From the NCBI GenBank assembly GCA_036497565.1, contig DASXJE010000197.1, forward strand, positions 1 to 34,215: a stretch of 34,215 bases of DNA, read 5' to 3'. The notes under the pieces were generated by a model. It saw only the letters and a program-made list of their open reading frames with translations. It was not told the DNA's origin and made no database searches. The translations under genes were made by a program, and so were the position numbers. The stretch's first letter is position 1, and each line of letters opens with the position of its first letter. This document shows, in pieces, positions 4,728 to 31,742 of this stretch. The DNA comes from Mycobacteriales bacterium (GTDB lineage Bacteria > Actinomycetota > Actinomycetes > Mycobacteriales > QHCD01).

Positions 4728-4756
4728 CCGCAACCGCGACCTATCTCCCAGCGCTC

Positions 4757-4814
4757 CCATGATCGTGATCGGATCCGTACGGCGTTTCGCGGCTTTATCC
4801 GATCACGATCATGG
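4757..4814. repeat. 18-bp perfect inverted repeat in a convergent intergenic gap
   Basis: The arms at 4757-4774 and 4797-4814 are exact reverse complements over 18 bases, separated by a 22-nt loop. The element sits between the stop of the TIGR03943 gene and the stop of the opposite-strand HNH-like gene. It could act as a bidirectional terminator. There is no T-run and the stem is only moderately GC-rich, so a dispersed palindromic repeat or a protein-binding site is equally possible. Confidence 0.6.
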
Positions 4815-5369: not shown

Positions 5370-5591
5370 TTCCCCAGGATGGGACAGAAATCCTGATGAC
5401 GCAACGGAACCGATCAGTCACTAGTGGTCACACCGTGGCCAGTCCGTGTTGTCCGTCATGGCGCCCTTCTGCCCCGATATGACGCCGTGGGGTGCAACCC
5501 CGACCTGCCGAACGGCTCTGGATGTCGTAGCGTCTGCGCACGTCGACTGGGCTCAACGCTTTCACCATCTGACGGCGAGGAAGGATTCGCA
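5370..5591. promoter_or_regulatory. Divergent intergenic region upstream of the CUT2 operon
   Basis: About 220 bases between the starts of the HNH-like gene (minus) and the sugar-binding lipoprotein (plus). It contains a short hairpin, GGGGT-GCA-ACCCC (5489-5501). It also has a weak LacI/CcpA-like site, read on the minus strand as TGAAAGCGTTGAGC (5551-5564), 27 nt before the ATG. I see no convincing -35/-10 pair. Sugar control of the operon through a LacI-type regulator is plausible, but no such regulator is in the window. Confidence 0.25.
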
Positions 5592-6698: not shown

Positions 6699-6700
6699 TC

Positions 6701-16700: not shown

Positions 16701-16747
16701 CTCGGGAAACGCGAGATGCCTACGAGCGACTGAAGCTGGCCGACTGA
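13745..16747 (+). CDS. AfsR-like regulator with C-terminal SARP/BTAD module
   Basis: A 1000-residue cytoplasmic signal-transducing regulator. The GTG at 13745 follows GGGGCGGGAA. Residues about 15-330 are a STAND/NB-ARC-type ATPase with Walker A GSGGVGKT (44-51), Walker B VLLVLDNCEH (116-125), VLATSREPL and GGLPLAIELAA. Residues about 370-720 are helical TPR-like repeats, for example GDRPGIAMVLHGLGGVARER and GEGTVWSLLSLGTVAQYRDE. From about 757 comes a winged-helix OmpR-like DNA-binding domain (RIRVLGACTVHRG to YAGGRYTLD), then a BTAD domain to the end (EWVETRRSEFARAAAQAL and YDEAAEVYRTAVTRDPLDEA). In AfsR and SARPs the DNA-binding/BTAD part is N-terminal, so here the order is reversed. It probably activates nearby or distant genes on sensing a ligand and ATP. 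The target genes are unknown. Confidence 0.9.
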   Translation: MATATGFQVTTPLRAPRSTLVGRDGEIALLLQAMTSSRLVTLTGSGGVGKTRLALATAHTDAVAGLVPDGVAVAELAAVSDATLIADTVRVALGISEAPGHAATTAIIEGVGAAAVLLVLDNCEHLSAAATELVDDLLDGCPHLRVLATSREPLAVGGEALWPVHPLPVPPAGAVASEVVTNSAAGQLFEQRAQAVLPSFRLTDANAPSVARVCRRVGGLPLAIELAAARVRLLSVEQIAAGLSDVLGLLVGGARTTPARQQSLRATMDWSNALLSDSERTVFRRLGVFPGGFDLPAAQAIAAGSDVTAGELLEVLARLVDQSLLTALPAGQQVRYRLLSPIRDYAREQLAAAGEQATVAAAHLGFYAEMVERAEPLLSGPQQTDELDKLELDGNNLRSALRFAAESGSPPAGLRMAAGLVRLCVVRGHYREGRHWLDWAATADMTAPEPMRAKALLGSGQLAFLSCDYPAAVRRLEASLQLYRRLGDRPGIAMVLHGLGGVARERGRYARAEDLYRQSLQLAEADGARAQIAQARGYLGFLAWLQGDWPQAIIETEEALQAFRQLGDGEGTVWSLLSLGTVAQYRDEHATAAELLEQAHRLAQRLGYREGVAWCLHELGLLALRRGDANAEPLLLDALSRHRDLGDRWRTASVLDDLAACVQTRGDHRRAVALLAAAAQVRTAIGTELAPCEQADHRRVEADARKHLAEEEFAAAWLHGQGVTLNELIAVPPVAPATSPARSATEPDGVRSTSTVRPLRIRVLGACTVHRGEHLLTTADWGYGKPRELFFLLASSAALTKSTIGVALWPDLDGQQLRNAFHTALRDLRRAVGDPHWIRYAGGRYTLDRIREHSSDIEIFQEALATAGRARPPEAALPHLQRAVAAYGGEFGPGLPDTEWVETRRSEFARAAAQALSDLGRLLANARRYDEAAEVYRTAVTRDPLDEAAHRHLMTCLSNLGEIGQAAREYEQLVRRLHTELGVAPARETRDAYERLKLAD

Positions 16748-18078: not shown

Positions 18079-18165
18079 TTCTGAGGCCGCCTCTCCCCCG
18101 CGCTCCGGCGACTGAATGTCTGTTGTCTCTTGCAGCGAGTCTCCTGGAGAGGCGGACCGCGATCG

Positions 18166-18182
18166 TCACCCAGTGAGGGTGA
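18166..18182. terminator. Hairpin after the methyltransferase gene
   Basis: TCACCC-AGTGA-GGGTGA gives a 6-bp perfect stem with a 5-nt loop just past the stop of the minus-strand methyltransferase gene. There is no T-run. It probably separates this gene from the small membrane protein and patatin genes downstream. Confidence 0.4.
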
Positions 18183-18184
18183 GA

Positions 18185-19339
18185 TCAGTCGGGAGCCGAA
18201 GAGCGCCGGCCGGCGATCATGCCGACCCGCTCGTAATCGGTGTACTGGTGGTCGGCCACCTCGTGCCAGTCGAACACGCGATGGACGGTCCCGCCCGCCT
18301 CCTCGATCCACGCCCGGGCCGAGGCTTCACTGACCGGGTGCATCTCCATGGTCGAGTCGGCTGTGTCGTGGTCCGTCCTCGACCGATCCGCGCGGCGCCC
18401 CCGCGGCCAACGGCTGGAGGTGACCGACACCGGCGCGTCGAGCGGGCCCGAGCCCCGGTCGGCGAACCAGGCCACGCCCTCCTGTACGGCGTCCACCCGC
18501 AGCAGATGACGGCCGTGGCCCCTTGGCGCCGTGACCTCGAGCTCGACCCGAGCGGAGGCGCCCGGCGGGAGGTCGTGCGGCAGCGGAGCACGGGCGTCGT
18601 CGCCGACCATGAGCGCACCATCCGGCCGCAGCCACCGGTTACCTATCGACACCTGGTACCACCCGTTCGTACCCGTAGCCGGCAGCGTCGACGACCCGGT
18701 GTTACGCACCGTCACCTCGATGAGCTGCCGGGTCCCGGCCGGCAGCCGGCGCGGCCACTGCTGCGGGGTCAGCTCGACCCGGAACGCGTCGTCGGGAAGC
18801 GGGCGATCCGCCCCACGCACCGGCTCGGTGACCAGCTGGATCAGGAGCAGGCCGTCGTCTGCGAGCACCCGGAGAAACTCGGCGACGTACCGTCGGACGA
18901 ACCGTGGCTCGATGTGCTGGAGGACATGGGCGGTGTAGACGAAATCGAACCGGCCGGCTGGGAAAAGCGCGAGGTCACCGGTGGCGTTGAGGTGGTAGCG
19001 GACCCGCGGGCCGTGCGCGTTCCAGGACCGCGCAGTGGCCAACATCGAGTCGGCGATGTCCACGCCGTCGACCTCGGCGAAATGCTCGGCAAGCGCCTGC
19101 GTCAGCCGGCCGACGCCGCAGCCGAAGTCGAGCGCACGGTTCGCCGGGGCGGGGACGCCGATTTCCTCCGCCACGGCGCCGACGACCGACGATGCCCGGT
19201 CGATCTCGGACCGCCCACTGGCGAGGAAGTCCTCGCGCCGCCATCGGCCGTACCGCGTTCCCGGCCAGGTCAGAACCGCCCACAGGGGGTCCCGGGTGCC
19301 GAAACGTTCCCAGTGGGCACGAAGGTCAGCCAACTCCAC
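18185..19339 (-). CDS. SAM-dependent methyltransferase with inserted beta domain
   Basis: A 384-residue class I methyltransferase. The GTG at 19339 is the only start that keeps the N-terminal helix. The SAM-binding motif is DFGCGVG (residues 71-77), followed by VDGVDIADSM and the post-motif FDFVYTAHVLQHIEP. After the strand LLLIQLVTE (about residue 175), roughly 150 residues of beta-sandwich sequence follow (IEVTVRNTGSSTLPATG, GNRWLRPDGAL, LPPGASARVELEVTAP and VQEGVAWFADRG). The frame then returns to ARAWIEEAGGTVHRVFDW and YERVGMIAG, which look like the last helix and strands of the methyltransferase fold. Similar sandwich domains occur in bacterial glycan-modifying proteins, so a carbohydrate substrate is suggested. 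No glycan gene cluster is nearby. Confidence 0.82.
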   Translation of the reverse strand: MELADLRAHWERFGTRDPLWAVLTWPGTRYGRWRREDFLASGRSEIDRASSVVGAVAEEIGVPAPANRALDFGCGVGRLTQALAEHFAEVDGVDIADSMLATARSWNAHGPRVRYHLNATGDLALFPAGRFDFVYTAHVLQHIEPRFVRRYVAEFLRVLADDGLLLIQLVTEPVRGADRPLPDDAFRVELTPQQWPRRLPAGTRQLIEVTVRNTGSSTLPATGTNGWYQVSIGNRWLRPDGALMVGDDARAPLPHDLPPGASARVELEVTAPRGHGRHLLRVDAVQEGVAWFADRGSGPLDAPVSVTSSRWPRGRRADRSRTDHDTADSTMEMHPVSEASARAWIEEAGGTVHRVFDWHEVADHQYTDYERVGMIAGRRSSAPD

Positions 19340-19543
19340 CCGGAAACCCTAGGACACCGCGGGATCGGACCAAATCTGTGACCAGTGCCGTACGACGAAT
19401 CAGTCACCACACGGTGACGTGCGCGCTACTCTCGTCCCTGGTTGGGCAGTCAGCCGTGGGTTCATCGTCGTCCGGCGCGACCGGTGCGGGGGACAGGGCG
19501 CAGTCGGGCGTGGCCGTCATGTCAGGCCCGAGGGGGCGTGCCC

Positions 19544-19902: not shown

Positions 19903-20634
19903 TCAGCGGCTCGCCCCCGCGGGCTGTCCCGTCTTCTCAGTCGCCGCCTCGGTGCTCTCGGAAACCTCGGTGTCTGTGTCGCCCGCCTCCGGTTCGCGGG
20001 CCGGGCCGACGGCGGCGGCGAGCATGCTGGCGTTGGGCACGTTCAGCGGGCCCTCGTCGGCGTCCAGACGGGTATAGCTCAGGCCCATTCCGGTGACCGT
20101 GCCCTCGAAAAGCCCACCGAGCGGAGCCGACCGGATCCTGATGTGGTCACCGATGGTGAACGGCCGGGCGACGAGCAGCACCAGGCCGGCGAAAATGTTG
20201 CCCAGCGACTGCTGTGCGGCGATCCCGAAGACGACACCGGTCAGTGCACCGCCGAGCAGCAGATGCTGAATCGGCACGTCGAGCAGGTCGAGTGCGAGGA
20301 GCAGCACGATCAGGTAGCAGATGAACGTGACGAGTAACCGGACCATCGACGCCGCCGCCGGTCCGGCGCGGGCGCCGACGACCCGCGAGATCTCCCCGGC
20401 GGTGCTGCGGGTGGCGAGGATCGCCAGCACGAGAAACACCGCCGCGCCGACGATCGCGATGAGCCGGGCCTGCAGGGAGTGGGCATGGACGTTCCCGAAG
20501 GCGGCCGCCGCCGTCATCGCCACGAGCGCGCCGAAACCGCAGGCCGCGGCACGGCGGAAGTCCGCCCGCCGGACCAGGTTCATCGGTCGGGTGGGCACGG
20601 TCGAACGGAGGTCGCTCCAGCGGTATCTGGCCAC
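19903..20634 (-). CDS. Small MscS-type mechanosensitive channel
   Basis: A 243-residue membrane protein. It has about four hydrophobic segments, the last being the pore helix LLLGGALTGVVFGIAAQQSLGN, followed by the signature beta domain GLVLLVARPFTIGDHIRI and a conserved end LNVPNASMLAAAV. It stops soon after the beta domain with an acidic Ser/Thr/Glu tail and lacks the C-terminal alpha/beta vestibule of E. coli MscS. Such short forms are common in actinomycetes. The GTG at 20634 has no obvious Shine-Dalgarno. An ATG at 20583 (MNLVRRADF) is an alternative. It ends 3 bases from the STAS stop, convergently. It opens to release solutes under osmotic down-shock, by family knowledge. Confidence 0.88.
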   Translation of the reverse strand: MARYRWSDLRSTVPTRPMNLVRRADFRRAAACGFGALVAMTAAAAFGNVHAHSLQARLIAIVGAAVFLVLAILATRSTAGEISRVVGARAGPAAASMVRLLVTFICYLIVLLLALDLLDVPIQHLLLGGALTGVVFGIAAQQSLGNIFAGLVLLVARPFTIGDHIRIRSAPLGGLFEGTVTGMGLSYTRLDADEGPLNVPNASMLAAAVGPAREPEAGDTDTEVSESTEAATEKTGQPAGASR

Positions 20635-20646
20635 AAATCAGTTGTA

Positions 20647-21549
20647 CTAGCAGTGACTCGGCCGGCGCATCCGCCCCCTGCGCCCCGCCCCGACCGACCG
20701 GTCACGCACCGCGAGCCCGTACCACCGGATCGCGTTGCCGCCTGCCACGGACTCGATATCGGCCCGGTCGAGGCCGGCGTCGAGGAGCCCGGCCGTAAGG
20801 TCACGCCAAGCATCCGCGTAGCCGCGCCGAAGGAGGACGACGGGCCAGTTGCTGGCGAGGAGCAATCGGTCGGGGCCGAAACAGGTCGCCGCCCAGCGGA
20901 GATACGGGACGAGTTGCGCATTCGACCACGTCGCCCAGGCGGTGAGGACGTCGATCCCGACCGAGACCTTGAGCGCGACGTTCGGTGCCGCGCCGAGGGC
21001 CTGGACGCCGTCCGCCCACGGTTGCCAGCTCCCGGTGTCGACCGGCGGGCGGGCCAGGTGATCGACGACGATGCGGAGCTCGGGCACCGAGCGGGCCACC
21101 GCGACGACGTCACGTACCTGTTCCGGGGTGACCGGAACGACGTCCCAGCACAGGCCGCGCGCAGCGATCTCCCGGAAGAGAGAAGTTGTATCCGGCCTGG
21201 TCAGCCAGTCCGTACGGCCCCGGCCGACGAGACAGCGAACGCCGCGGACCACCTGGTGGCCGTCGAGGCCGGGCAGGACGGTCCGGGCCGCAGCGGGATC
21301 CCGTAGCGGCACCCACGCGACCACCCCCTCGACGAACGGCGCCTGCGCGGCGAAGTCGAGGAGTCGTGCATTTTCCTCCTCCGTGTCGACGGACTGGACG
21401 AGGATGCTGCCGTCGATGCCGGCGGCGGCGAGGTCGGCCGAGAGGTCGTCCGGCATGAAGTCCCGGGCGATGACCTCGTGTTCGTGGCTGCGCCACGCCT
21501 GGTGCTGCCGGCCGTAGCGCCAGAAGTGGTGATGGGCGTCGATGGTCAC
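20647..21549 (-). CDS. Amidohydrolase-2 (COG3618) lactonase-like hydrolase
   Basis: A 300-residue TIM-barrel metal-dependent hydrolase of the group that includes L-fucono/L-rhamnono-lactonases and 2-pyrone-4,6-dicarboxylate hydrolase. The GTG at 21549 lies one base after the crotonase stop, so the two are coupled. It has IDAHHHFW (His6-His8) and VVDHLARPP (His164). At the end of strand 8 it reads LLLASNWPV, so Asn234 stands where the canonical family has Asp (GSDWPV). The Asn form exists in part of the family and may alter metal use or mechanism. It is the last gene of the eight-gene catabolic unit, and a lactone-ring-opening step is the natural guess. The C-terminal 15 residues are Arg-rich and probably unstructured. 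Confidence 0.87.
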   Translation of the reverse strand: MTIDAHHHFWRYGRQHQAWRSHEHEVIARDFMPDDLSADLAAAGIDGSILVQSVDTEEENARLLDFAAQAPFVEGVVAWVPLRDPAAARTVLPGLDGHQVVRGVRCLVGRGRTDWLTRPDTTSLFREIAARGLCWDVVPVTPEQVRDVVAVARSVPELRIVVDHLARPPVDTGSWQPWADGVQALGAAPNVALKVSVGIDVLTAWATWSNAQLVPYLRWAATCFGPDRLLLASNWPVVLLRRGYADAWRDLTAGLLDAGLDRADIESVAGGNAIRWYGLAVRDRSVGAGRRGRMRRPSHC

Positions 21550-21550
21550 G

Positions 21551-22324
21551 TCATCGCCCTTTCCAGACCGCCGGGCGCTTGTCGAGAAACGCCTGCACCC
21601 CCTCGTGGAAGTCCGAGCTGCCGTAGCAGGCCCGGAAGACGTCGTCGAACTCCACCTGACCCGAAGGCGCCGCCAACCGCCGGTCGGCTTCCTTGATCGC
21701 CGCGATGCTCAGCGGCGCACATCGGCAGATGTCCGCGACGATCTCGGACACGCGCGGATCGAGCTCGGTACGGTCCACCACCTCGTGCACGAGTCCGGCG
21801 CGGTGAGCCTCGTCGGCCGAGACCAGCCGGGCCGTCAGCAGCATGCTCAGAGTGGCGGACCGTCCCAGACTGGCGTAGAGACGGCCGATCGTGACCGGCG
21901 GCAGGCAGTTGCCGACGGTCCGCGCGACCGGTGCGCCGAACACTGCGTCCGGGGTTGCGATGACAAGATCGCAGATCGCGACCAGGGCGAGCCCGGCTCC
22001 GACGGCCGGCCCCTCGACGACGGCGACGACGGCGATCCCCAGACCCGCGAGGCGGTCGAGGACCTGTGCGACGCGGTGTTCGTAGCGCACCCCGTCCTCG
22101 CCGTCGCGGAAGTCGGCGAACTGCCCGATATCGGTTCCGGCCGCGAACGCGGCGCCGTCGCCGCGCAGCAGCAGCACCCGCAACTCCGGGTTCCCCGCCA
22201 CCGTGTCGCAGGCGGCTGCCAGCTGGTCATACATCCGCCAGGTGAGCGCATTGCGGGAATCGACGTTCGAGATCGTCAGGTGTGCGAGCGCCCCCTCGAT
22301 CCGCAGCGCAACCTCGTCACTCAC
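21551..22324 (-). CDS. Crotonase-fold protein lacking both hydratase glutamates
   Basis: A 257-residue member of the enoyl-CoA hydratase/isomerase superfamily. The GTG at 22324 overlaps the CoA-transferase stop by 8 nt. The CoA-binding and oxyanion parts are present: GDGAAFAAGTDIGQF and EGPAVGAGLALVAICDLVIA. The two acid-base Glu residues of true hydratases (Glu144 and Glu164 in the rat enzyme) align with Ala113 and Val133 (FGAPVARTVGN). The P-x-ARTxGNCL pattern is one I associate with a widespread actinobacterial subgroup of unknown reaction. It is unlikely to be a simple hydratase and may be an isomerase, lyase or thioester hydrolase acting on the CoA ester made by the preceding gene. Confidence 0.9.
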   Translation of the reverse strand: MSDEVALRIEGALAHLTISNVDSRNALTWRMYDQLAAACDTVAGNPELRVLLLRGDGAAFAAGTDIGQFADFRDGEDGVRYEHRVAQVLDRLAGLGIAVVAVVEGPAVGAGLALVAICDLVIATPDAVFGAPVARTVGNCLPPVTIGRLYASLGRSATLSMLLTARLVSADEAHRAGLVHEVVDRTELDPRVSEIVADICRCAPLSIAAIKEADRRLAAPSGQVEFDDVFRACYGSSDFHEGVQAFLDKRPAVWKGR

Positions 22325-23516
22325 CCGCTGCGCCGCTCGCTTGTGCCGGACCGTCGCCGGGACGGGAAACGCGGAGCTCGCCGAGCACCTCGACGGTGTG
22401 CTCGCCCAGCAGCGGTGGATGCCGCACGATCGTGGCCGGCGTACGGCTGAACTTAACCGGCGACCCGAGCAACCGGATCGTGCCTTCGACCGGATGCTCG
22501 ACCTCCTGGATCATTCCTCGCGCCCGCGCATGCGGGTCGCCGTCGAGGATCTGCCCGTAATCGAGGATCGGGCCGGCGGCGACGCCCGCGGCCAGCAGCC
22601 GGTCGACCCATATCTGGGTGGTGTCCCGACCGAGCGTCTCCTCGAGCGCCTTCCGGAGGTCTGACCGGTGCCGCATCCGCGCCGCGTTCGTCGCGAACCG
22701 CTCGTCGGTGATCAGCTCCTCCGCGTCGATGGCCCGACACAGCCGCTCCCACAGCCGCTGGTTGTTCGCCCCGACGGTCAGATAACCGTCGCTGGTACGG
22801 AAGACCTCGTACGGCGCCGACATCCGGTTTCCCGAGCCGAGCGGTTGGGGGACGCTCCCGGTGGCCCAGTACTCGGTCGACTCCCACACGGACATCGCCA
22901 GGACCGCTTCGTAGAGAGACGTCTCGACGTATTGCCCCTCCCCTGTGCGGGCACGGTGCAGACAAGCGGCCAGAATTCCGTAGGCGCAGAACAGTCCGGC
23001 GCCGAGATCGCCGACAGGAAGGCCGCACTTGACCGGCTCCCCGTCAGGTTCACCGGTCACCGAGATGGCCCCGGCCATGCCCTGTGCGATCAGGTCGTAG
23101 CCGGGCCGCATCGAGTAGGGGCCGCTCTGTCCGAAGCCGGAAATGCTCGCGTAGACCACGGATGGGCTGGCGGCGGCGATCGTCGGGTAATCCACGCCGA
23201 GACGAGCCGAGACTCCGGGCCGGAAGTTCTCGACGACCACGTCGGCCGTCTCCACCAGCCGGTAGAGATCGGCCCGGCCGCTCTCCGTACCCAGATCGAT
23301 GCAGATGCTCCGCTTGTTGCGGTTCAGTGCGAGGAACGCTGCGCTGTCTTCCCCTTTGCTCGGGTATCCCCATGACTTGCGCGTCTGGTCGCCGACCCCG
23401 GGAAGCTCGACCTTGATGACATCGGCCCCCAGGTCGGCGAGCAGCATGGTGCAGAACGGGCCCGCCATGACCTGGGTCAGGTCGACCACACGCATTCCAC
23501 TGAGCGCCCCGGTCAC
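22317..23516 (-). CDS. Class III (CaiB/BaiF, formyl-CoA transferase type) CoA-transferase
   Basis: A 399-residue transferase that moves CoA from a donor thioester to a carboxylic acid. The GTG at 23516 has AGGAGG 7 nt upstream. The longer frame to 23594 lacks a site and overlaps the binding-protein gene. Family marks are VVDLTQVMAGPFCTMLLADLG (start), GADVIKVE, LNRNKRSICIDL, VVENFRPGV and SGFGQSGP. The catalytic Asp is in LPVGDLGAG (Asp170). Length is normal. It suggests that the imported compound, or a breakdown product, is a carboxylic acid activated by transfer from succinyl-CoA or acetyl-CoA. The acceptor cannot be read from sequence. Confidence 0.94.
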   Translation of the reverse strand: MTGALSGMRVVDLTQVMAGPFCTMLLADLGADVIKVELPGVGDQTRKSWGYPSKGEDSAAFLALNRNKRSICIDLGTESGRADLYRLVETADVVVENFRPGVSARLGVDYPTIAAASPSVVYASISGFGQSGPYSMRPGYDLIAQGMAGAISVTGEPDGEPVKCGLPVGDLGAGLFCAYGILAACLHRARTGEGQYVETSLYEAVLAMSVWESTEYWATGSVPQPLGSGNRMSAPYEVFRTSDGYLTVGANNQRLWERLCRAIDAEELITDERFATNAARMRHRSDLRKALEETLGRDTTQIWVDRLLAAGVAAGPILDYGQILDGDPHARARGMIQEVEHPVEGTIRLLGSPVKFSRTPATIVRHPPLLGEHTVEVLGELRVSRPGDGPAQASGAAGE

Positions 23517-23535
23517 CGGCGCCTCCTGTCGTCGA

Positions 23536-24882
23536 TCAGCCCTGTTGGAGGTCAGCGTCCGCCTCCTTGAAGAAGGAATCGACCGCCTGCGCAACCGTCT
23601 TACGCCCGAACGAGATGTCCTGGTAGGCGCGCGTGTAGGCGTCCACGAACACGCTGGTGTAGCCCGACGGGTAGACGATCACCGGAGCCTTGTGGTCGAC
23701 GATCTCGTTGTAAACCTCGAGCTCCTCCTTCTTCTCAGGCGTCGTCTTCGGGTCATTGATCTGCGCGTCGAGCAGCTTGGTGACGGTCACCGCACCGTTG
23801 TCCGAGGAGAACGCATGCGCTCCCTTGGCGTCGTTGGTGAAGAAGTTGATGAAGGACGCCGCGGTCGGCACGTTCTCGCAGTTCGCCGAGATCGACAGAC
23901 CCGAGGTGATCAGAACGTTCCCCAGACCCGACGAACCGAACGGATGGGTCGTGATCGCGAGCTTCCCACCCTTGACTCCGTTGATCGCGTTCTGCGCGTC
24001 CTCGAGGGCGTTGCCGGGAGTCGTCGCACTCATCACCTTGCCCTGGGCCATGAAACTCTGCTCCAGCGGAGTGTCCGTCCCCTGGTCGGCCTGTGCCGCC
24101 GCCGAGATGGTCGCCCCGGACTTGCGGAGCTTCTCCCACATGTTCCAGTACGCGGCGAGCATCGACTTGGAAAAGCCGAGCTTGTCGCCCTTGAAGAGCG
24201 ACGCGCCCTGGCTCTGGGTGTAGGAGATGAAGACGTCGGCGTTGCCGCCGTCCAGATTGCTGGCCGCGACCCCCTTGGGCAGCTTGGCCTTGGCCTGCGT
24301 CAGCCAGTTGGTGTACCAGTCCCAGGTGAAGTTCGTCGGCGGCGTCGGCAACCCGGCCTTGGTGACGATCGTCTTGTTGTACATGATGCCGTCGTACGCT
24401 GCGCCGTACGGGATCATGTAGAGCTTGCCATCGGTCCCTCGACCCGTATCGAGGACGTTCTTCGGGATGCCTGATACGTCGATGGCGCCGGACTTCACCA
24501 TCTTGTCCAGCGGCATCAGCGTGTGCCGCTTGGTGTAGTCGTTGAGCTCCCGGGCCTGCATCTGCGGGACGCACGGCAGGTTCTTCCCGGCCGCCTCCAC
24601 GTTGAGCTTCTCCCAGTAGGCGTCGAAGTCGCTGCTCTGACCGTCGATCTTCACCTTGGGATGGGCCTTCTTGTACAGCGAGATGACGGCGTTGGTCTTC
24701 TCGTTGCGGCTCGCGCCGCCCCACCAGGCGTAGTCGATCGCACCGTGGGCCGCTCCCTTGCCTCCCTGCCCCTGCGTCGATCCGCCCTGCGACGTGCCGT
24801 TGCATCCGGCGACGGTCACGACGGCGACGGTCAGGCCGGCGGTGAGCCCTAACAGGCGCCGCGCGGTTTCTCGTGGTCGCAT
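23536..24882 (-). CDS. CUT1-type (family 1) substrate-binding lipoprotein
   Basis: A 448-residue solute receptor of the SBP_bac_1 family. The ATG at 24882 has AAGGAG 8 nt upstream. A GTG directly before it (24885) is an alternative. The signal peptide ends with a lipobox, VAGC (Cys27), followed by a Gly/Gln/Ser linker. The mature part begins IDYAWWGGASRNEKTNAVIS, with LYMIPYGAAYDGIMYNKTI in the hinge region and YPSGYTSVFVDAYTRAYQDI near the end. The layout is that of oligosaccharide or sugar-derivative binding proteins. It works with the two permeases just upstream. Lying in a unit of acid-activating enzymes, its ligand may be a sugar acid, glycoside or lactone and not a plain sugar. Confidence 0.93.
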   Translation of the reverse strand: MRPRETARRLLGLTAGLTVAVVTVAGCNGTSQGGSTQGQGGKGAAHGAIDYAWWGGASRNEKTNAVISLYKKAHPKVKIDGQSSDFDAYWEKLNVEAAGKNLPCVPQMQARELNDYTKRHTLMPLDKMVKSGAIDVSGIPKNVLDTGRGTDGKLYMIPYGAAYDGIMYNKTIVTKAGLPTPPTNFTWDWYTNWLTQAKAKLPKGVAASNLDGGNADVFISYTQSQGASLFKGDKLGFSKSMLAAYWNMWEKLRKSGATISAAAQADQGTDTPLEQSFMAQGKVMSATTPGNALEDAQNAINGVKGGKLAITTHPFGSSGLGNVLITSGLSISANCENVPTAASFINFFTNDAKGAHAFSSDNGAVTVTKLLDAQINDPKTTPEKKEELEVYNEIVDHKAPVIVYPSGYTSVFVDAYTRAYQDISFGRKTVAQAVDSFFKEADADLQQG

Positions 24883-24900
24883 CACGTTGTCTCCTTCGCG

Positions 24901-25797
24901 CTACTTGAGTCCGGTGGTGGTGATGCCTTGGGTCAACATCCGCTGTGCGGCGAGAAAGAAAGCGACCAGCGGGACGAGCGAGAGCACAGCCATCGCGAAC
25001 AGCGATCCGTAGGACGATCGCCCGGTGGCGTCGATGAACATGTTGAGTCCCAGCGGGACGGTGTAGAGCTGGGTCTTGCTCAGGTAGAGCAACGGGCCGA
25101 GGAAGTCGTTCCACGACGCGATGAAGGTGAACATCGCCGTGGTGCCCATCGCGGGTAGGGACAGCGGCACGATGATGCGGCGGAAGATCTGCCAGTGGTT
25201 GCACCCGTCGACCCGGGCCGAGTCGTCGAGCTCCCTCGGCAGGGCACGGATGAACTGAATGTTGAGGAAGATGAAGAACGCATCCGCGCCGAGAAACTTC
25301 GGCAGCACCAGCGGGATGTAGGTGTTCAGCCAGGACAGCTTGTCGAAGAGGATGTACTGCGGCACGAGAGTCACGTGGTAGGGCAGCAGGATCGTCGCCA
25401 TCAGGACCGCGAACAGCACGCGCTTGAACGGGAAGTCCAGGCGGGCGAAGGCGTACGCCGTGAGCGTGCAGGCGAAGACGTTACCGATGACCGCGAGTAG
25501 GGCCACCACCGCGGAGTTCAGGAAGAACCGGGAGAAGTGCAGCGACGGCGCCGGATTCAGGCCGTGCCGGTAGTTGTCAAGCGTGAACCGGCCGAAGAGT
25601 CCCAGGGTGCTGAGCACCTGGTTGTCCGGCCGGAACGATGCAGCAACGAGCCAGGCGACCGGGTAGAGCAGGAAGCAGATGATGACGATCGTCACGAGGT
25701 GTCTGGCAAGGGCACGTACCAGTCGGCTCTTGGACGGCTGCGTCATCATCTGGATGCCGGTGGTACGGGTGCGCGTCTCCAGCGTCTGCGTGCTCAT
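24901..25797 (-). CDS. CUT1 ABC permease, MalG type
   Basis: A 298-residue inner-membrane permease with six hydrophobic segments. The ATPase-docking EAA loop reads ELDDSARVDGCNHWQIFRRI followed by IVPLSLPA. The ATG at 25797 overlaps the stop of the MalF-type gene (ATGA). The C-terminus ends QRMLTQGITTTGLK, typical of the family. No ATPase gene accompanies the pair, so the transporter probably uses a shared MsiK-type ATPase encoded elsewhere, as many actinomycete CUT1 systems do. Confidence 0.94.
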   Translation of the reverse strand: MSTQTLETRTRTTGIQMMTQPSKSRLVRALARHLVTIVIICFLLYPVAWLVAASFRPDNQVLSTLGLFGRFTLDNYRHGLNPAPSLHFSRFFLNSAVVALLAVIGNVFACTLTAYAFARLDFPFKRVLFAVLMATILLPYHVTLVPQYILFDKLSWLNTYIPLVLPKFLGADAFFIFLNIQFIRALPRELDDSARVDGCNHWQIFRRIIVPLSLPAMGTTAMFTFIASWNDFLGPLLYLSKTQLYTVPLGLNMFIDATGRSSYGSLFAMAVLSLVPLVAFFLAAQRMLTQGITTTGLK

Positions 25798-26756
25798 GCC
25801 TCATCTCCGTAATGCACCCAGAACCGTGCAGTCGAGAAGGCGATCGCGGTGAACACGGCGAGCGCGGCGAGCAGCAGCCACGCCATCGCGGCGGCGTATC
25901 CCATCTGGAATTCGACGAACCCCTTCTGGTACAGGTAGAGCGTGTAGAAGAGCAGCGAGTCCGAGGGACCGCCGCTACCGCCGCTCACCACGTAGGCGCC
26001 CGTGAACGCCTGGAATGCGTGGACCGTGTCGAGCAGGACGTTGAAGAAGATCAGCGGGGTGAGCTGGGGAAGCGTGATATGCCAGAACCGCTGGAACACG
26101 TGGGCGCCGTCGACGGACGCCGCTTCGTAGAGGTTGGCCGGGACCTGGCGGAGGCCGGCCAGAAAGATGATCATGGTGCTGCCGAAGGCCCAGAGGTTCA
26201 GGCCGATGATCGAGTAGAGCGCCGTGCCGGGGTTGCCGACCCAGCTTCCGTGGTGGAGTCCGACGACCTCCAGAGCCCGGTTGACGATGCCGAAGGTGCC
26301 GAAGACCTGCTTCCACAGGATCGCGATCGCGACGCTGCTGCCGATCAGAGACGGCACGTAGAAGAGCGTGCGGTAGATCCCGAGCAGGCGGATACCGCGG
26401 TTGAGGAACAGCGCGAGAAGCAGCGAGACGATCAGCACGAGCGGCACGGACACGAGAACGAACGTGAGCGTCACCCGGACCGACTGCCAGAACCGCGGGT
26501 CGGCTCCGAACATCCGGCGGAAGTTTGCCAGGCCGACCCACTTGGGCGGGCTGAGCAGGTCGTACCGGGTGAACGCGAGGTAGAGCGAGAACAGCATCGG
26601 GCCGAGCGTGATGACGACGAGACCGAGGAGCCACGGTGTAAGGAACGCGTACGCCGTGAGCGCGGATCGCCACTTCCGCTTGCGTCGAGATTTCTCCCGC
26701 GTGGGTGTAGCTCCGCTCGCGTCCTGGCCGGCGACGGTTTCTTCGTAGGTGGTCAT
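25794..26756 (-). CDS. CUT1 ABC permease, MalF type
   Basis: A 320-residue permease with a basic cytoplasmic N-terminus (KSRRKRKWR) and six hydrophobic segments (first AYAFLTPWLLGLVVITLGP). The EAA loop reads NLYEAASVDGAHVFQRFWHI then TLPQLTP. The ATG at 26756 lies 18 bases after the dehydrogenase stop. A weak CCGGGGCC stretch is the only candidate ribosome site, so translation may depend on upstream reading. It forms the channel with the next gene. Confidence 0.94.
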   Translation of the reverse strand: MTTYEETVAGQDASGATPTREKSRRKRKWRSALTAYAFLTPWLLGLVVITLGPMLFSLYLAFTRYDLLSPPKWVGLANFRRMFGADPRFWQSVRVTLTFVLVSVPLVLIVSLLLALFLNRGIRLLGIYRTLFYVPSLIGSSVAIAILWKQVFGTFGIVNRALEVVGLHHGSWVGNPGTALYSIIGLNLWAFGSTMIIFLAGLRQVPANLYEAASVDGAHVFQRFWHITLPQLTPLIFFNVLLDTVHAFQAFTGAYVVSGGSGGPSDSLLFYTLYLYQKGFVEFQMGYAAAMAWLLLAALAVFTAIAFSTARFWVHYGDEA

Positions 26757-26773
26757 GAGGGGCCCCGGTCCCG

Positions 26774-27646
26774 TCAGGCCTGGTCGCGGTCGGCGGTCCG
26801 GGCGGCATGGGCCTCAACCCGCTGGGCGAGCCCCTGCGCGAGGAGGTGCGCGAGCGGTGCGGCGACATCGGCGGCCTCGGCGACGGTGACAACCTCTTGC
26901 AGGTCCTTGCTCCACGGACGCTTGCCGACCGGCACCTGCGATGCGTCGTAAGCGTGCGCCACGTCGTCGAAGAAGCCCCAATGCCGTGCCACCCAGGAGT
27001 CGCCCGTGCTCGTCCGCACGGCCCCCAGTACCTCGGCCGCGCCGACGCCATGAGCCGCAGCGATGTCGAGCGCTTCGTACGCGCCGGCGAGGCTCGCGAA
27101 CATCATGAGCTGGTTGGCGAGCTTGGCCACCGCGCCCGAGCCGGCCGGTCCGACGTGGACGACCGTGCTCGCGACCGCGTCGAGGTAGACCTGCGCGGCG
27201 CCGACCGCCGCGTCGGTTCCGCCCGCCATCAGAGTGAGCGTGCCCTCGCGGGCGCGCTCCGCTCCCCCACTCACCGGTGCGTCGATGAACTCGATCCCGG
27301 CCTCCGCTGCCCGTGCGGCGAGACGCTGGACGGTGCCGGGCAGCACGGTGCTGTGCACCACGACCACCGACCCGGGTTTGAGCGCGTCCAGCACGCCGCG
27401 GCGCTCGAGAGTGTCGGCGACCGCGTCGTCGTCGGGCACGGCAAGGGCCACCAGTTGGCACCGGGCCAGGTCGAGTGCCGTGTCGGCCACGGTGGCGCCG
27501 TTCCCGGCGCACTCATGCATCCGATCGGGAACGACGTCGTGGACGACGACCGGCCATCCCTGGTCGACTAGGTGGCGGGCCATCGGCATCCCGAGATTTC
27601 CCAGCCCGGCGAAGCCGATCTGGATCGAGCCGGTGAGCGGGGGCAT
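26774..27646 (-). CDS. Beta-hydroxyacid dehydrogenase (HIBADH/GarR family)
   Basis: A 290-residue NAD(P)-dependent dehydrogenase of the 3-hydroxyisobutyrate/tartronate-semialdehyde reductase family. The ATG at 27646 is chosen. A GTG at 27652 overlaps the upstream stop (TAGTG) and would add two residues. The Rossmann motif is GFAGLGNLGMPMARHL (residues 11-26), substrate loop DAPVSGG (122-128), and catalytic Lys175 in GAVAKLANQL. All are intact. It oxidises or reduces a small 3-hydroxy acid or semialdehyde, consistent with the carboxylate theme of the cluster. Its place right after the aldolase suggests it acts on an aldolase product or substrate. The cofactor is not determinable with confidence. 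Confidence 0.92.
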   Translation of the reverse strand: MPPLTGSIQIGFAGLGNLGMPMARHLVDQGWPVVVHDVVPDRMHECAGNGATVADTALDLARCQLVALAVPDDDAVADTLERRGVLDALKPGSVVVVHSTVLPGTVQRLAARAAEAGIEFIDAPVSGGAERAREGTLTLMAGGTDAAVGAAQVYLDAVASTVVHVGPAGSGAVAKLANQLMMFASLAGAYEALDIAAAHGVGAAEVLGAVRTSTGDSWVARHWGFFDDVAHAYDASQVPVGKRPWSKDLQEVVTVAEAADVAAPLAHLLAQGLAQRVEAHAARTADRDQA

Positions 27647-27651
27647 CGGCA

Positions 27652-28344
27652 CTACTTGACGGTCTCGTCGAGTGGCCAACCGAGCCGCTCATAGATCTTG
27701 CGCCGACCCACCTTGTCGTTCTCAAGCTCCTGACGGGCGAACTTCGCCACGACCTCGGCGTGCTCGAGCGGCACCACGATCACCCCGTCGCCGTCGGCGA
27801 CGACGATGTCGCCCGGGCGGACCAGCACCCCGCCGATGTTGACCGGGATCTGCGCGGCGTCGAACTCGATGCGGCCCTGCACCATCGCCTGCGCCCGGGT
27901 ACGGCAGAAGATCGGGACCTTCTGCAGGATGCATTCGTCGCGGTCCCGTACGCCGCCGGAGGTCACGATTCCCGCGGCTCCCGCGGCGAACCACCCGAGT
28001 GAGTTGTTGGATCCGATCTCGCCGACCGCGACGTCCGGGGGTGATTCGACGACGACGACCTCACCGGTGGTGAGATGCTCGGCCAGCTTGTACGAGTAGA
28101 GCTCCTTGTACCAATAGTTGTATGCCCATTCCGTGTACTCGTCCGGCGTGATCGCCGGCACGGTCTTCTCGGACAGGCGGTGCCGGATGGTGTGTGCCGG
28201 CCCGCACAACTTCGCGCCCTGGAACATCGGCGCGATGTCCGGCGACACCGTCCCCTTCGCGTGCAGGCCGGCCCAGTCCATGCCGTCCCGTACGTCGGCG
28301 ACCCTGACGCCCTCGAAAAGCTGTGCCACCCCTGCGGTCTCCAC
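27652..28344 (-). CDS. RraA-family aldolase/decarboxylase-like protein
   Basis: A 230-residue member of the RraA fold, which includes 4-hydroxy-4-methyl-2-oxoglutarate and 4-carboxy-4-hydroxy-2-oxoadipate aldolases and oxaloacetate decarboxylases. The GTG at 28344 has GAGGAGG 6 nt upstream. Marks are GEIGSNNSLGWFAAGAAGIV (109-127), SGGVRD with Arg133-Asp134 of the active site, and GDIVVADGDGVIVVP. It is longer than E. coli RraA (161 residues), chiefly through an insert of about 30 residues rich in Tyr and Trp (EYTEWAYNYWYKELYSYK, 69-86). As the first gene of the unit it probably performs the final cleavage to pyruvate plus a second acid, which is inference. A regulator-of-RNase role is unlikely in this context. 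Confidence 0.88.
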   Translation of the reverse strand: METAGVAQLFEGVRVADVRDGMDWAGLHAKGTVSPDIAPMFQGAKLCGPAHTIRHRLSEKTVPAITPDEYTEWAYNYWYKELYSYKLAEHLTTGEVVVVESPPDVAVGEIGSNNSLGWFAAGAAGIVTSGGVRDRDECILQKVPIFCRTRAQAMVQGRIEFDAAQIPVNIGGVLVRPGDIVVADGDGVIVVPLEHAEVVAKFARQELENDKVGRRKIYERLGWPLDETVK

Positions 28345-28554
28345 GCGACCTCCTCGCCGGCCTCGGCCGGCTCCGACGGATAGGGGTCGACCGACTGGTC
28401 ACCCCACCTGATCGGCAGCGACGCGACCCTCGGGTCACCTCGGCTGCCATGTGCGGACTATTGTCTACAACAGACGAAGAGGCCTGGCAAGGGTGGCGGG
28501 AGAACAATGGCGGGACCACCGCCAGGGACCGCACTGCCAGGGACAGGAGAGCCA
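28345..28554. promoter_or_regulatory. Divergent promoter region of the catabolic cluster
   Basis: About 210 bases between the divergent aldolase unit and the regulator gene. It holds the FadR-type palindrome at 28461-28470. I see no unambiguous sigma-70 boxes. An ATG at 28507 offers an alternative, longer start for the regulator. Confidence 0.5.
28461..28470. promoter_or_regulatory. FadR/GntR-type operator palindrome
   Basis: TTGTCTACAA fits the FadR-subfamily consensus of GntR operators (N-Y-GTM-KAC-R-N) with perfect TTGT/ACAA half-sites. A further AGAC at 28472-28475 mirrors the GTCT at 28463-28466. It lies between two divergent transcription units, one of which encodes a GntR/FCD regulator. 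Autoregulation and control of both arms is inferred. Confidence 0.6.
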
Positions 28555-29283
28555 GTGGGCACCAATCAGCCGCGCGCGAAGGGCGAGTACGTCTCCGACG
28601 ACGGCGCGCGGGCGCGACTCAACCCGCCCAGCCTCGTCCAGCTCGCGGCCGAAGAGTTGCGCCGGATGATTCTGTCCGGGGACCTGCAGCCGGGAGAGCG
28701 GCTCATCGAGGAACGGCTCACCGAGCGCCTCGGGATCAGCCGTCCCCCGCTCCGGGAGGCCATGCGGCTGCTCCAGCGCGAGGGGCTGATCCTCACCGAG
28801 CCGCGCCGCGGCGCGACGGTGACCCGGCTGGCCGAATCCGACGTACTCGAGATCCTGACGCTCCGGTCCGCGCTCGAACGGTTGGCTGTCGAGCTAGGCG
28901 TGCCGGTCACCTCGCCGGAACGGCTAGAGCCATGTCGCGCCGCTATCGACGACATGGCGGCCTGTGCGGCCCGGGGCGACCGCGCCGGCCTCGTCGAGCG
29001 GGGCTACGTTTTCCATCACGCGATCATTGCCTTGTCCGGTCACCGTCGCCTGGAGGAGGTCTACCGGTCGCTGCACCAACAGCTGCTGCTCTGTATGGCG
29101 ATGAACTTGCACACCAGGGAGCACTTCTTCGAAGACCTTGCCGAGCACGTCGACCGGCATCGGCACCTGCTCCAGCTGATCGAGGCCGGCGATCCACAGG
29201 TGGTGCTCACCGAGCTGGCGGCGCACGGTGAGCGCTCCTTCACGCACCCGCCCGAGCGTCCCGAGAAGGTGAGGACCAGATGA
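28555..29283 (+). CDS. GntR-family (FadR/FCD) transcriptional regulator
   Basis: About 242 residues from the GTG at 28555 (AGGAGA 4 nt before). An ATG at 28507 is possible. A winged-helix domain comes first: ELRRMILSGDLQPGERLIEE, then LTERLGISRPPLREAMRLLQ (recognition helix) and GLILTEPRRGATVTRL. An all-helical FCD ligand-binding domain follows, with VFHHAIIALSGHRRL, and HVDRHRHLLQLIEAGDP near the end, supplying the His-rich metal/ligand site usual for the family. FCD regulators typically sense organic acids such as lactate, gluconate or their kin. Its stop overlaps the GlcD-like gene (ATGA), so regulator and dehydrogenase are coexpressed. It probably represses the divergent unit until the inducer is bound. 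Confidence 0.94.
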   Translation: MGTNQPRAKGEYVSDDGARARLNPPSLVQLAAEELRRMILSGDLQPGERLIEERLTERLGISRPPLREAMRLLQREGLILTEPRRGATVTRLAESDVLEILTLRSALERLAVELGVPVTSPERLEPCRAAIDDMAACAARGDRAGLVERGYVFHHAIIALSGHRRLEEVYRSLHQQLLLCMAMNLHTREHFFEDLAEHVDRHRHLLQLIEAGDPQVVLTELAAHGERSFTHPPERPEKVRTR

Positions 29284-30656
29284 CGAGCACCAGCGCACCC
29301 GTGGCCGAGCTGCAGAGCGCCCTCCCGGCCGCGAGTCTGGTGACCGACCCCGACCTCATGGAGAGCTACCGGCGGGACAACGCCGACCTCGCCGAGGCGG
29401 GCATGCCCCTCGCGGTCGTTCTCGCCCGGTCCACCGAGGAGGTCTCCGCGGCGCTGCGCTGGGCGACTGCGCACCGGGTCCCGGTGGTGCCGCGCGGCGC
29501 GGGGTCGGGACTCTCCGGCGGCGCCAGCGCCGTCGAGGGCGGCTTGATCCTGTCGCTGACACACATGGACCGCATTCTCGAGATCAACCCGGACGACCAG
29601 TTGGCCGTCGTCGAGCCGGGTGTCATCAACGCCGACGTCGGCCGGGCTGCGGCCGAGCACGGCCTGCGCTACCCGCCCGACCCGTCCAGCTTCGAGATCT
29701 CCACCATCGGGGGAAATCTCGCCACCAACGCCGGTGGCCTTCGCTGCGTGAAGTACGGCGTCACCCGCGACTCCGTGCTCGGGCTGGAGGTCGTGCTGAT
29801 GGACGGGCGGGTGATCCGCACCGGCGGGCGCACGATCAAGAGCGTGGCCGGTTACGACCTGACCCGGCTCTTCGTCGGATCGGAGGGGACGCTCGGCGTC
29901 ATCACCGCGGCGAACCTGCGGCTGCGGCCCCTGATCATCGGGGAGCCGGTGACCTTTGTGGCGTCGTTCAGCTCGCTGGTGGACGCCGGCGACGCGGTGT
30001 CCCGCATCATCCGGGCGGGACTGGCGCCGAGCCTGCTGGAACTGATGGACCACACCAGCATCAACCTGATCGAGGACTACCAGCGGATGGACCTCGACCG
30101 GAGCGCCGCCGCGCTGCTCATCGGCCAGGCCGACTCACCGCAGTCGGCGGCCGAGGCCGAGGCGATGGCCGAGTGCGCGCGCGTCGCGGGTGCCGACCTC
30201 GTCGTGCAGTCCAGCGATGCGGCCGAGGCGGAGTTGCTGCTCGAGGCGCGCCGGCAGCACTACCACGCGGTCACCGCGCAGGGCGCGACGCTGATCGACG
30301 ACGTCGGCGTACCACGCAGCAAGCTGGCGGCGCTGCTCGGCGGGATCGAGCAGGTCGGCAAGGAGTACGGCGTCACCATCGCCACCGTGGGGCACGCCGG
30401 CGACGGCAATGTCCACCCGACGATGGTCTTCCCGCACGGCGACGTCGAGGCGGCGCGGACGGCCGAACGGGCCGCGGAGGAGATCTGCCGGCTCGCCTTG
30501 CGGCTGGGCGGCACGATCACCGGCGAGCACGGCGTCGGATCGCTGAAGCGCACCTGGCTGCACGGTGAGATCGACGACGACACCTACGCCGTACACCGGT
30601 CGATCAAGTCGACGCTCGACCCGCTCGGCCTACTCAACCCCGGCAAGGCCATCTAG
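29280..30656 (+). CDS. GlcD-type FAD-linked 2-hydroxyacid dehydrogenase
   Basis: A 458-residue flavoprotein of the VAO/PCMH superfamily, glycolate/D-lactate dehydrogenase group. The ATG overlaps the regulator stop. The FAD-binding loop is PRGAGSGLSGGA (71-82), with SSFEISTIGGNLATNAGG following. The C-terminal catalytic part has GHAGDGNVHPTM and TGEHGVGSLK. It would oxidise a 2-hydroxy acid to the 2-oxo acid, passing electrons onward. The GlcE and GlcF partners of the glycolate complex are absent, so it acts alone or with partners elsewhere. In this cluster it likely supplies the 2-oxo acid on which an RraA-type aldolase can act. Confidence 0.93.
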   Translation: MTSTSAPVAELQSALPAASLVTDPDLMESYRRDNADLAEAGMPLAVVLARSTEEVSAALRWATAHRVPVVPRGAGSGLSGGASAVEGGLILSLTHMDRILEINPDDQLAVVEPGVINADVGRAAAEHGLRYPPDPSSFEISTIGGNLATNAGGLRCVKYGVTRDSVLGLEVVLMDGRVIRTGGRTIKSVAGYDLTRLFVGSEGTLGVITAANLRLRPLIIGEPVTFVASFSSLVDAGDAVSRIIRAGLAPSLLELMDHTSINLIEDYQRMDLDRSAAALLIGQADSPQSAAEAEAMAECARVAGADLVVQSSDAAEAELLLEARRQHYHAVTAQGATLIDDVGVPRSKLAALLGGIEQVGKEYGVTIATVGHAGDGNVHPTMVFPHGDVEAARTAERAAEEICRLALRLGGTITGEHGVGSLKRTWLHGEIDDDTYAVHRSIKSTLDPLGLLNPGKAI

Positions 30657-30683: not shown

Positions 30684-31688
30684 TCAGCCGGTGTTCGGGG
30701 CGATGTCGGCGTCGCCGGGACTGCGATGCGGCATGCGCTCGGCCGGGATCTGCCCCATCCGACCGCTCTGGAAGTCCTCGAGCGCCTGGACGATCTCGTC
30801 CTTGGTGTTCATCACGAACGGGCCGTAGTGCACGACCGGCTCCTTGATGGGCCGGCCGCCGAGGACCAGCACCTCGAGGTTGGGCGTGTGGCTGTCCTGG
30901 GACGCGTCGGCGGCCACCGTGATGGCATCGCCGGGGCCGAAGCGGGCGAGCTGACCACTGTGGATCGGTCGACCGTCGGCGCCGACCGTTCCCCGCCCGG
31001 CGAGGACGTAGACCAGCGCGTTGAAGTCCGGCCGCCACGGAAGGGTCAGGCGGGCACCCGGGTTGACCGTCGCGTGCAGCAGGCTGATCGGGGTGTACGT
31101 CGACCCGGGACCGGCATGGCCGGCCACGTCGCCGGCGATGACCCGGATCAGCGCACCGCCGTCGGGCGAGGACAGCAGCGTGGTCTCGCCGCCCCGGATG
31201 TCCTGGTAGCGCGGCGGATTCCACTTGCTGTCGCTGGGCAGGTTGACCCACAGCTGCATCCCGTGGAAGAGCCCACCGGAGATGACGAGCTGCTCCGGCG
31301 GAGCCTCGATGTGCAGGATTCCGGCGCCGGCGGTCATCCACTGGGTGTCGCCGTTGGTGATCAGCCCGCCGCCACCGGTGGAGTCCTGGTGCTGGAAGGT
31401 GCCGTCGATCATGTAGGTGACGGTCTCGAAACCGCGGTGCGGGTGCCACGGCGTGCCCTTGGGCTCGCCCGGCGCGTAGTCGACCTCCCCCATCTGGTCC
31501 ATGTGGACGAACGGGTCGAGGTCGCGCATGCTCACCCCGGCGAACGCCCGGCGTACCGGAAACCCTTCGCCTTCATAGCCGGTCGGTGCCGTGGTGATCG
31601 ACACCACCGGCCGCTCGGTGACGGTCGTGGGGTCGATCACCGGGACACGGGGCAGGGCGAGCACATCGGGCACGGTTACGGCGGGCAT
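30684..31688 (-). CDS. Pirin-family bicupin protein
   Basis: A 334-residue two-cupin protein. The ATG at 31688 has AAGGAG 6 nt upstream. The frame opens at 31709, but those codons contain the ribosome site itself. The pirin metal site is complete: GTPWHPHRGFETVTYMIDG with His82 and His84, and GILHIEAP with His126 and Glu128. Bacterial pirins bind Fe and act as quercetinases or as redox-linked modulators. The function of this one is not fixed by sequence. It is divergent from the SDR-like gene across a MarR-type palindrome, so induction by phenolic or oxidative signals is a reasonable guess. Confidence 0.93.
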   Translation of the reverse strand: MPAVTVPDVLALPRVPVIDPTTVTERPVVSITTAPTGYEGEGFPVRRAFAGVSMRDLDPFVHMDQMGEVDYAPGEPKGTPWHPHRGFETVTYMIDGTFQHQDSTGGGGLITNGDTQWMTAGAGILHIEAPPEQLVISGGLFHGMQLWVNLPSDSKWNPPRYQDIRGGETTLLSSPDGGALIRVIAGDVAGHAGPGSTYTPISLLHATVNPGARLTLPWRPDFNALVYVLAGRGTVGADGRPIHSGQLARFGPGDAITVAADASQDSHTPNLEVLVLGGRPIKEPVVHYGPFVMNTKDEIVQALEDFQSGRMGQIPAERMPHRSPGDADIAPNTG

Positions 31689-31742
31689 CGTGGTCTCCTT
31701 CATCAGCACGGGGGCTGCTGCGCTGTCGTCGATCCAACCTTA

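Follow-up and report, generated by a model that had tools for sequence, protein, structure and literature searches.

Contig DASXJE010000197.1 of a Mycobacteriales bacterium (assembly GCA_036497565.1) was analysed as a window of 34,215 nucleotides (nt), in which positions 20647 to 30656 hold ten genes that combine a CUT1-type sugar importer with an RraA-like protein, a class III coenzyme A (CoA)-transferase and further catabolic enzymes. Nine of the ten are conserved together in other genomes, and the gene set is a real, self-regulated unit that probably imports and degrades a sugar-like acid. It is a new combination of known families and no new kind of system, and no described pathway with this combination was found in the open-access literature, as the initial annotation, made from the letters alone, had surmised. 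We regard the set as a good test case for a new breakdown route and not as a surprise in itself, its moderate interest resting on an operator-like site, on a clade of RraA-like proteins (here named RraA1) and on several odd active sites.

Conservation of the gene set and its operator-like site

The open reading frame (ORF) list and the Pfam and NCBIfam profile matches confirmed all ten ORFs in their two divergent arms, with the locations and family names first given to them (Table 1). The minus arm (20647-28344) comprises eight genes, and the plus arm consists of gntR and a GlcD-like gene overlapping it by 4 nt. The gaps between the minus-arm ORFs as called are 1, -8, -59, 15, -4, 17 and -28 nt, but the CoA-transferase and dehydrogenase ORFs, which open at TTG 23594 and TTG 27679, probably start too far upstream. 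Better starts are GTG 23516, with AGGAGG ahead of it, and ATG 27646, leaving gaps of 19 and 5 nt; since the two large overlaps then disappear, the original description of 1-20 nt gaps or overlaps stands.

With the RraA protein as query, 84,980 genomes were scanned and 77 loci kept. The order gntR<>rraA-hibadh-permF-permG-sbp-coaT-ech-COG3618 is collinear, at 47-70% protein identity, in three other genomes: Phytoactinopolyspora halotolerans (L011), Streptomyces triticirhizae (L012) and S. hoynatensis (L013). Eight genes are kept in the Microbacteriaceae (Amnibacterium and Microbacterium, L016-L018), this gntR not among them; upstream of the eight stand an iron-containing alcohol dehydrogenase (Fe-ADH) and an aldehyde dehydrogenase, and downstream two Gfo/Idh/MocA genes. 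In Saccharopolyspora soli (L014), gntR, rraA, hibadh, the permeases, sbp and COG3618 are present and ech is absent, and there is a distant CoA-transferase with an acyl-CoA-dehydrogenase-like ORF farther on. All eight types occur in changed order, with an ATPase, in Microvirga ossetica (L088), and most of the set occurs rearranged in Devosia subaequoris (L077). This RraA is rare nearer to the source genome, which alone carries it out of 299 genomes of the order; the 395 genomes of the class hold a single further carrier, probably the same Phytoactinopolyspora genome. A GlcD gene was not found beside any of the relatives L011-L019, so that GlcD is rejected as a conserved member and is a local addition, the conserved unit being nine genes (the eight of the minus strand and gntR). 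The initial proposal of ten genes in one pathway therefore holds for nine of them and not for GlcD, and co-conservation, the check suggested with it, was found in collinear form in three genomes and nearly complete in Microbacteriaceae, Microvirga and Devosia.

The gntR orthologues stand divergent from rraA in four other genomes (L011-L014). In the gntR-rraA spacers of these and of the source genome, which are all five that keep this gntR, we found the 13-base site TTGTAGACAATAG. No longer k-mer is shared by all five spacers (the maximum in 300 shuffles was 6), and in three of the four relatives the site sits inside the palindrome CTATTGTAGACAATAG. Among the fetched loci it occurs at these spacers only, and it has one exact match in its own 4.8-Mb genome. 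The arrangement is thus more than chance, given the collinear nine-gene block and the site common to five spacers, and the single exact copy ties GntR to the operon and speaks against a wider regulon. Such a regulon was rejected: matches with one mismatch number four, including the site itself read on the opposite strand, which is near chance (controls 2 forward, 1 reverse). As read from sequence, the gene set is one dedicated local regulon with a candidate operator; co-conservation and the shared site support the original notion of a single uptake-and-catabolism regulon joining a CUT1 importer to acid-activating enzymes.

RraA1, the importer and the accessory enzymes

In a cross-phylum alignment of 91 RraA1 sequences, R14, D17, R19, D20, D23, S112, R133, D134, D136, E137, Q156 and D210 are invariant (91/91), which yields the motif S-x20-R-D-x2-E (S112, R133-D134-x2-E137). 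The LigK-type motif D-x20-R-D is not present, Ser112 standing at the Asp position in every sequence. A second motif of RraA-like lyases is reportedly G-x20-R-D-x2-E/D; compared with it, RraA1 always has R133-D134-x2-E137, but Ser instead of Gly at 112. The existence of two motifs is documented, and the aldolase uses Arg-123 to stabilise the pyruvate enolate, with Asp-124 as a metal ligand (PMC5065237). The predicted fold (predicted local distance difference test, pLDDT, 92.6) aligns with Z 24-25 to 3k4i, 5x15 and 3noj and with Z 15-25 to RraA-family entries, and matches at Z <9 to the swivelling domains of DHAD and phosphoenolpyruvate (PEP) enzymes are read as shared architecture; comparison with structure libraries thus identified no more than fold families. 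A close comparison is the HMG/CHA aldolase of Pseudomonas putida F1 (3noj; LigK/GalC type, protocatechuate 4,5-cleavage), whose fold is the same (Z 24.0, root mean square deviation 2.1 A, 191 aligned) and whose R-D pair, an Arg and a metal-binding Asp, also occurs in RraA1; unlike it, RraA1 has Ser for Asp, R-D-x2-E and the clade-specific stretches R-V-x-D-V-R-D-G-M-D-W and Q-x-M-x-Q-x-R. The absence of D-x20-R-D was at first taken to mean that the lyase function is lost, a reading withdrawn in view of the invariant R-D-x2-E. RraA1 appears compatible with a metal-dependent C-C lyase, and a lyase role is plausible, even though the specific assignment made at the outset, a 4-hydroxy-2-oxo acid aldolase, is not backed by a LigK motif.

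The neighbourhoods of RraA1 vary among lineages. Within the fetched stretches (flanks <=10 kb), the CUT1 importer type is found in 32-34 of the 77 loci and the dehydrogenase in 24. Bacillales sets also carry RpiB, a second RraA, Ldh2, Fe-ADH and an aldehyde dehydrogenase, and those of Clostridia add a beta-keto acid cleavage enzyme, either with a thiolase and a DUF1537 kinase or with MaoC and 3-hydroxyacyl-CoA dehydrogenase (3HCDH). This variation suggests a shared core of import and RraA1 chemistry with lineage-specific downstream steps. The oxidation of 2-deoxyribonate also employs a beta-keto acid cleavage enzyme, and the clostridial RraA1 sets are similar. They likewise carry a cleavage enzyme and thiolase similar to those of phloroglucinol degradation in Clostridium scatologenes (PMC10470551); the window, unlike either system, has no such cleavage enzyme, and an inositol/phloroglucinol origin, considered on account of the clostridial enzyme, was dropped for want of any tie to the window. 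In three clostridial loci (L064:10808-15902, L067 and L082) a TIM-barrel protein, the cleavage enzyme, the thiolase, the DUF1537 kinase and an SDR stand together, a row G6PD-RraA1-PCC is seen in Caldicoprobacter and relatives (L024:8385-11145; L022, L023, L046, L048), and PCC-domain proteins adjoin RraA1 in many loci. A second RraA1 system, resembling the Bacillales form, lies in the source genome itself (contig C42:1-11477, L119), with a GntR, Ldh2, an RraA2-type RraA, a binding protein (32%), RraA1 (41-42%) and both permeases (49-56%).

The lipoprotein binding protein and two MalF/MalG-type permeases make up a CUT1 importer. The binding-protein model (pLDDT 86) is closest to YesO and 4ovj (Z 42-44, the following rows 38), with Z 44.4 to YesO 4r6k (rmsd 2.4, 392 aligned). 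YesO, the rhamnogalacturonan-binding protein of Bacillus subtilis, is the closest solved binding protein by both sequence and fold, at about 25% identity; in contrast to the YesO system, no rhamnogalacturonan lyase or unsaturated-uronyl hydrolase is among the genes annotated in the window. The cluster has no ATPase gene, and genes for MsiK/UgpC-like ATPases (best 62% identical) lie in other parts of the genome.

Of the remaining enzymes, the COG3618 protein has Asn234 at the strand-8 catalytic Asp position in 11 of 11 aligned proteins (S-N-W-P). Its nearest solved relative, L-fucono-1,5-lactonase 4dlf, belongs to the same superfamily and shares the HxH motif, but reads S-D-W-P, as does the PDC-hydrolase 2ffi; PDB entry 6uvz, named only Amidohydrolase 2, is likewise SNWP. 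Against the L-fucono-1,5-lactonase equivalog it scores 142.6 bits, below the cut-off of 400. In the crotonase-fold protein, Ala113 and Val133 replace both hydratase glutamates (GGGxEL, xPE), with A, V or N at the first position and I or V at the second in 12 aligned proteins, and the clade has the motif FG-x-P-[IV]-x-R-T-x-GN; judged by these residues, it is not an ordinary hydratase. The CoA-transferase carries a CoA_transf_3 domain (443 bits) and the Gly-Tyr-Asp aspartate of class III, aligned with 9br7, 10uh and 4ed9, its nearest solved relative being succinate-HMG CoA-transferase 9br7. The dehydrogenase is of the HIBADH family, with the catalytic-site Lys aligned with PDB 2i9p (1e-36).

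A possible route and its alternatives

We tentatively read the set as a single regulon for the uptake and cleavage of a small carboxylated carbohydrate (uronate-, aldonate- or lactone-type), with lysis of a keto acid and a CoA-thioester step, a reading to which we give slightly less than even credence. An inducer would lift the repression exerted by GntR/FCD at a single operator that lies between the two arms, and the binding protein and permeases would bring the compound in, using an ATPase whose gene is outside the cluster. Its conversion to an oxo acid could fall to the amidohydrolase-fold protein and the beta-hydroxyacid dehydrogenase, and RraA1 would split this oxo acid by metal-dependent C-C lysis, either as a retro-aldol reaction or as a decarboxylation. 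The class III transferase might carry the carboxylic acid fragment as a CoA thioester, to be altered by the crotonase-fold protein, with the CoA handed on to the next substrate; the company that this transferase/crotonase pair keeps in other genomes (TctA/TctC-type transporters or a tartrate-dehydrogenase-like gene) suggests that its substrate is a hydroxy-carboxylic acid. In this strain GlcD could act on a 2-hydroxy acid fragment, for example by oxidising glycolate. If the lyase releases an aldehyde, the Fe-ADH and aldehyde dehydrogenase of the Bacillales and Microbacteriaceae versions would fit that expectation.

The nine-gene collinearity, the shared 13-nt site, the YesO-like binding protein, the RraA1 residues S112, R133, D134 and E137 and the importer near RraA1 argue for this route, as do the Fe-ADH/aldehyde dehydrogenase and clostridial additions, the FlDet precedent (a carbohydrate-acid enzyme, see below) and the ATPases elsewhere. 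Several points weigh against it: RraA1 and the crotonase have no characterised close homologue; FlDet, reported as 26% identical to RraAS2, was compared with RraA1 by description only (PMC8563752); a plain lactonase role for the COG3618 protein is doubtful, judging by the Asn that replaces a metal-site Asp; and the CoA-transferase/crotonase pair is found elsewhere without the sugar importer and could serve another acid.

This last point is the basis of an unlikely alternative, in which two modules are neighbours only, RraA1, the dehydrogenase and the importer serving a sugar acid and the CoA-transferase/crotonase pair an unrelated hydroxy-dicarboxylic acid. The pair does stand alone in other Actinomycetota and Burkholderiales, beside TctA/TctC-type transporters (the TctA type read by eye, with no hidden Markov model) or a tartrate-dehydrogenase-like gene, and Bacillota have the importer and RraA1 without the pair; on the other side, order and tight spacing are exactly kept in three other genomes, and the genes remain together, though rearranged, in Microvirga.

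Quite unlikely, too, is a CaiB/CaiD-like cycle in which an imported hydroxy acid would undergo epimerisation or dehydration by the transferase and the crotonase, with CoA recycled between substrate and product. A class III transferase is likewise paired with a thioester-acting enzyme in the CaiB/CaiD and Frc/Oxc cycles, and the nearest transferases use small dicarboxylic acids (HMG, glutarate, oxalate). However, the crotonase here is without both hydratase glutamates, and the transferase is nearer to succinate-HMG/glutarate/mesaconate types than to carnitine or formyl-CoA types, with 133 of 413 bits against the carnitine-specific model, far below its cut-off.

We also hold as very unlikely an oxidative uronate route as in Flavobacterium (FlRed/FlDet/FlDeg), through a 2-keto-3-deoxy-aldarate that an RraA-family enzyme would dehydrate and decarboxylate to alpha-ketoglutaric semialdehyde. 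FlDet is an RraA-family 2-keto-3-deoxy-D-glucarate dehydratase/decarboxylase, described without a CUT1 importer or CoA enzymes (PMC8563752); an aldehyde dehydrogenase comes after it, and the related Bacillales sets have one as well. The binding protein of YesO type fits such a substrate, and the aldehyde dehydrogenase adjacent to RraA1 in Bacillales best matches alpha-ketoglutaric semialdehyde dehydrogenase, below cut-off; yet the window set has neither such a dehydrogenase nor a uronate reductase, and the CoA-transferase and crotonase are left unexplained.

The smallest likelihood falls to the LigI/LigJ/LigK parallel drawn initially, with COG3618 opening a pyrone or lactone, RraA cleaving a 4-hydroxy-2-oxo acid to pyruvate and a sugar-type importer feeding the route: the superfamilies are the same and the RraA model aligns to 3noj, but SNWP replaces SDWP, the lactonase score is far from its cut-off, D-x20-R-D is missing, the importer is nearest YesO, and the annotated cluster genes include no ring-cleavage gene and no LigJ-type 4-oxalomesaconate hydratase, the rest of the genome not having been searched for LigJ. 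An ascorbate route was dropped, as none of its genes (WD40-type, PdxA, gluconolactonase) is among those annotated.

A bolder and rather doubtful extension of the single-regulon reading is that RraA1 would be an undescribed metal-dependent sugar-acid lyase, accompanied in Actinomycetota, Bacillota and Pseudomonadota by one type of CUT1 importer. In the actinobacterial form a crotonase that lacks the hydratase residues would handle its product as a CoA thioester, and the whole would be a cross-phylum carbohydrate route absent from current pathway maps. If this holds, a large RraA-like clade that is at present annotated just as RNase regulator or aldolase relative would gain a function, a sugar-type importer would be connected with CoA chemistry, and a crotonase subgroup that lacks the hydratase residues would be accounted for. 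Given the shared site and the collinear relatives, the regulon is directly testable in cultured S. hoynatensis and Phytoactinopolyspora halotolerans.

Feature coordinates and other genes of the window

Table 1. Genes and operator-like site of the regulon, with the adjoining GlcD-like gene.
Feature	Position	Strand	Basis
COG3618/Amidohydro_2 amidohydrolase-superfamily protein, 300 amino acids (aa), S-N-W-P for S-D-W-P	20647..21549	-	PF04909 133 bits; PDB 4dlf 1e-19
Crotonase-fold protein (ech), 257 aa, PRK06144 type, without both catalytic glutamates	21551..22324	-	PF00378; NF004796 285 bits (cut-off 272)
Class III (CaiB/BaiF) CoA-transferase (coaT)	22317..23516	-	PF02515 443 bits; PDB 9br7 2e-86
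CUT1 solute-binding lipoprotein, YesO-like (sbp)	23536..24885	-	PF01547; YesO PDB 5z6b 8e-32
CUT1 permease, MalG/UgpE type (permG)	24901..25797	-	PF00528; NCBIfam MalG/GlcU/UgpE-like, below cut-offs
CUT1 permease, UgpA/MalF type (permF)	25794..26756	-	PF00528; NCBIfam UgpA/GlcT-like, below cut-offs
Beta-hydroxyacid dehydrogenase, 3-hydroxyisobutyrate dehydrogenase/tartronate semialdehyde reductase family (hibadh)	26774..27646	-	PF03446 142 bits; PDB 2i9p 1e-36
RraA-like protein, clade RraA1, likely metal-dependent C-C lyase (rraA)	27652..28344	-	PF03737; 91-sequence alignment; fold model
Operator-like palindrome CTGTTGTAGACAATAG (minus-strand reading), containing TTGTAGACAATAG	28458..28473	.	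Identical 13-mer in four relatives' spacers
GntR/FCD regulator, probable local repressor (gntR)	28507..29283	+	PF00392 and PF07729; orthologues 62-71% identical
GlcD-like FAD-linked 2-hydroxyacid oxidase	29280..30656	+	PF02913/PF01565; TIGR00387 417 of 568 bits

The flanks look unrelated, with an MscS-like gene (19903-20634) before the operon and a convergent pirin gene (30684-31709) after GlcD. A CUT2-type sugar importer lies nearby on the plus strand (5424-10229), with a Peripla_BP_4 protein, an ABC ATPase and two BPD_transp_2 permeases. An 883-aa product (10274-12925, minus strand) with glycine-rich ALK/LTK-type, fn3 and He_PIG Ig-like domains is likely a surface protein, and a 1000-aa ORF (13745-16747, plus strand) has AAA and TPR matches and a BTAD at the C-terminus, an unusual place for this domain. 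ORFs of 530 aa (3168-4760, minus strand) and 421 aa (18116-19381, plus strand) have no Pfam match, and near the contig end (33643-34167, minus strand) there is a LinB-like C-terminal domain, of the lincosamide nucleotidyltransferase-like type.

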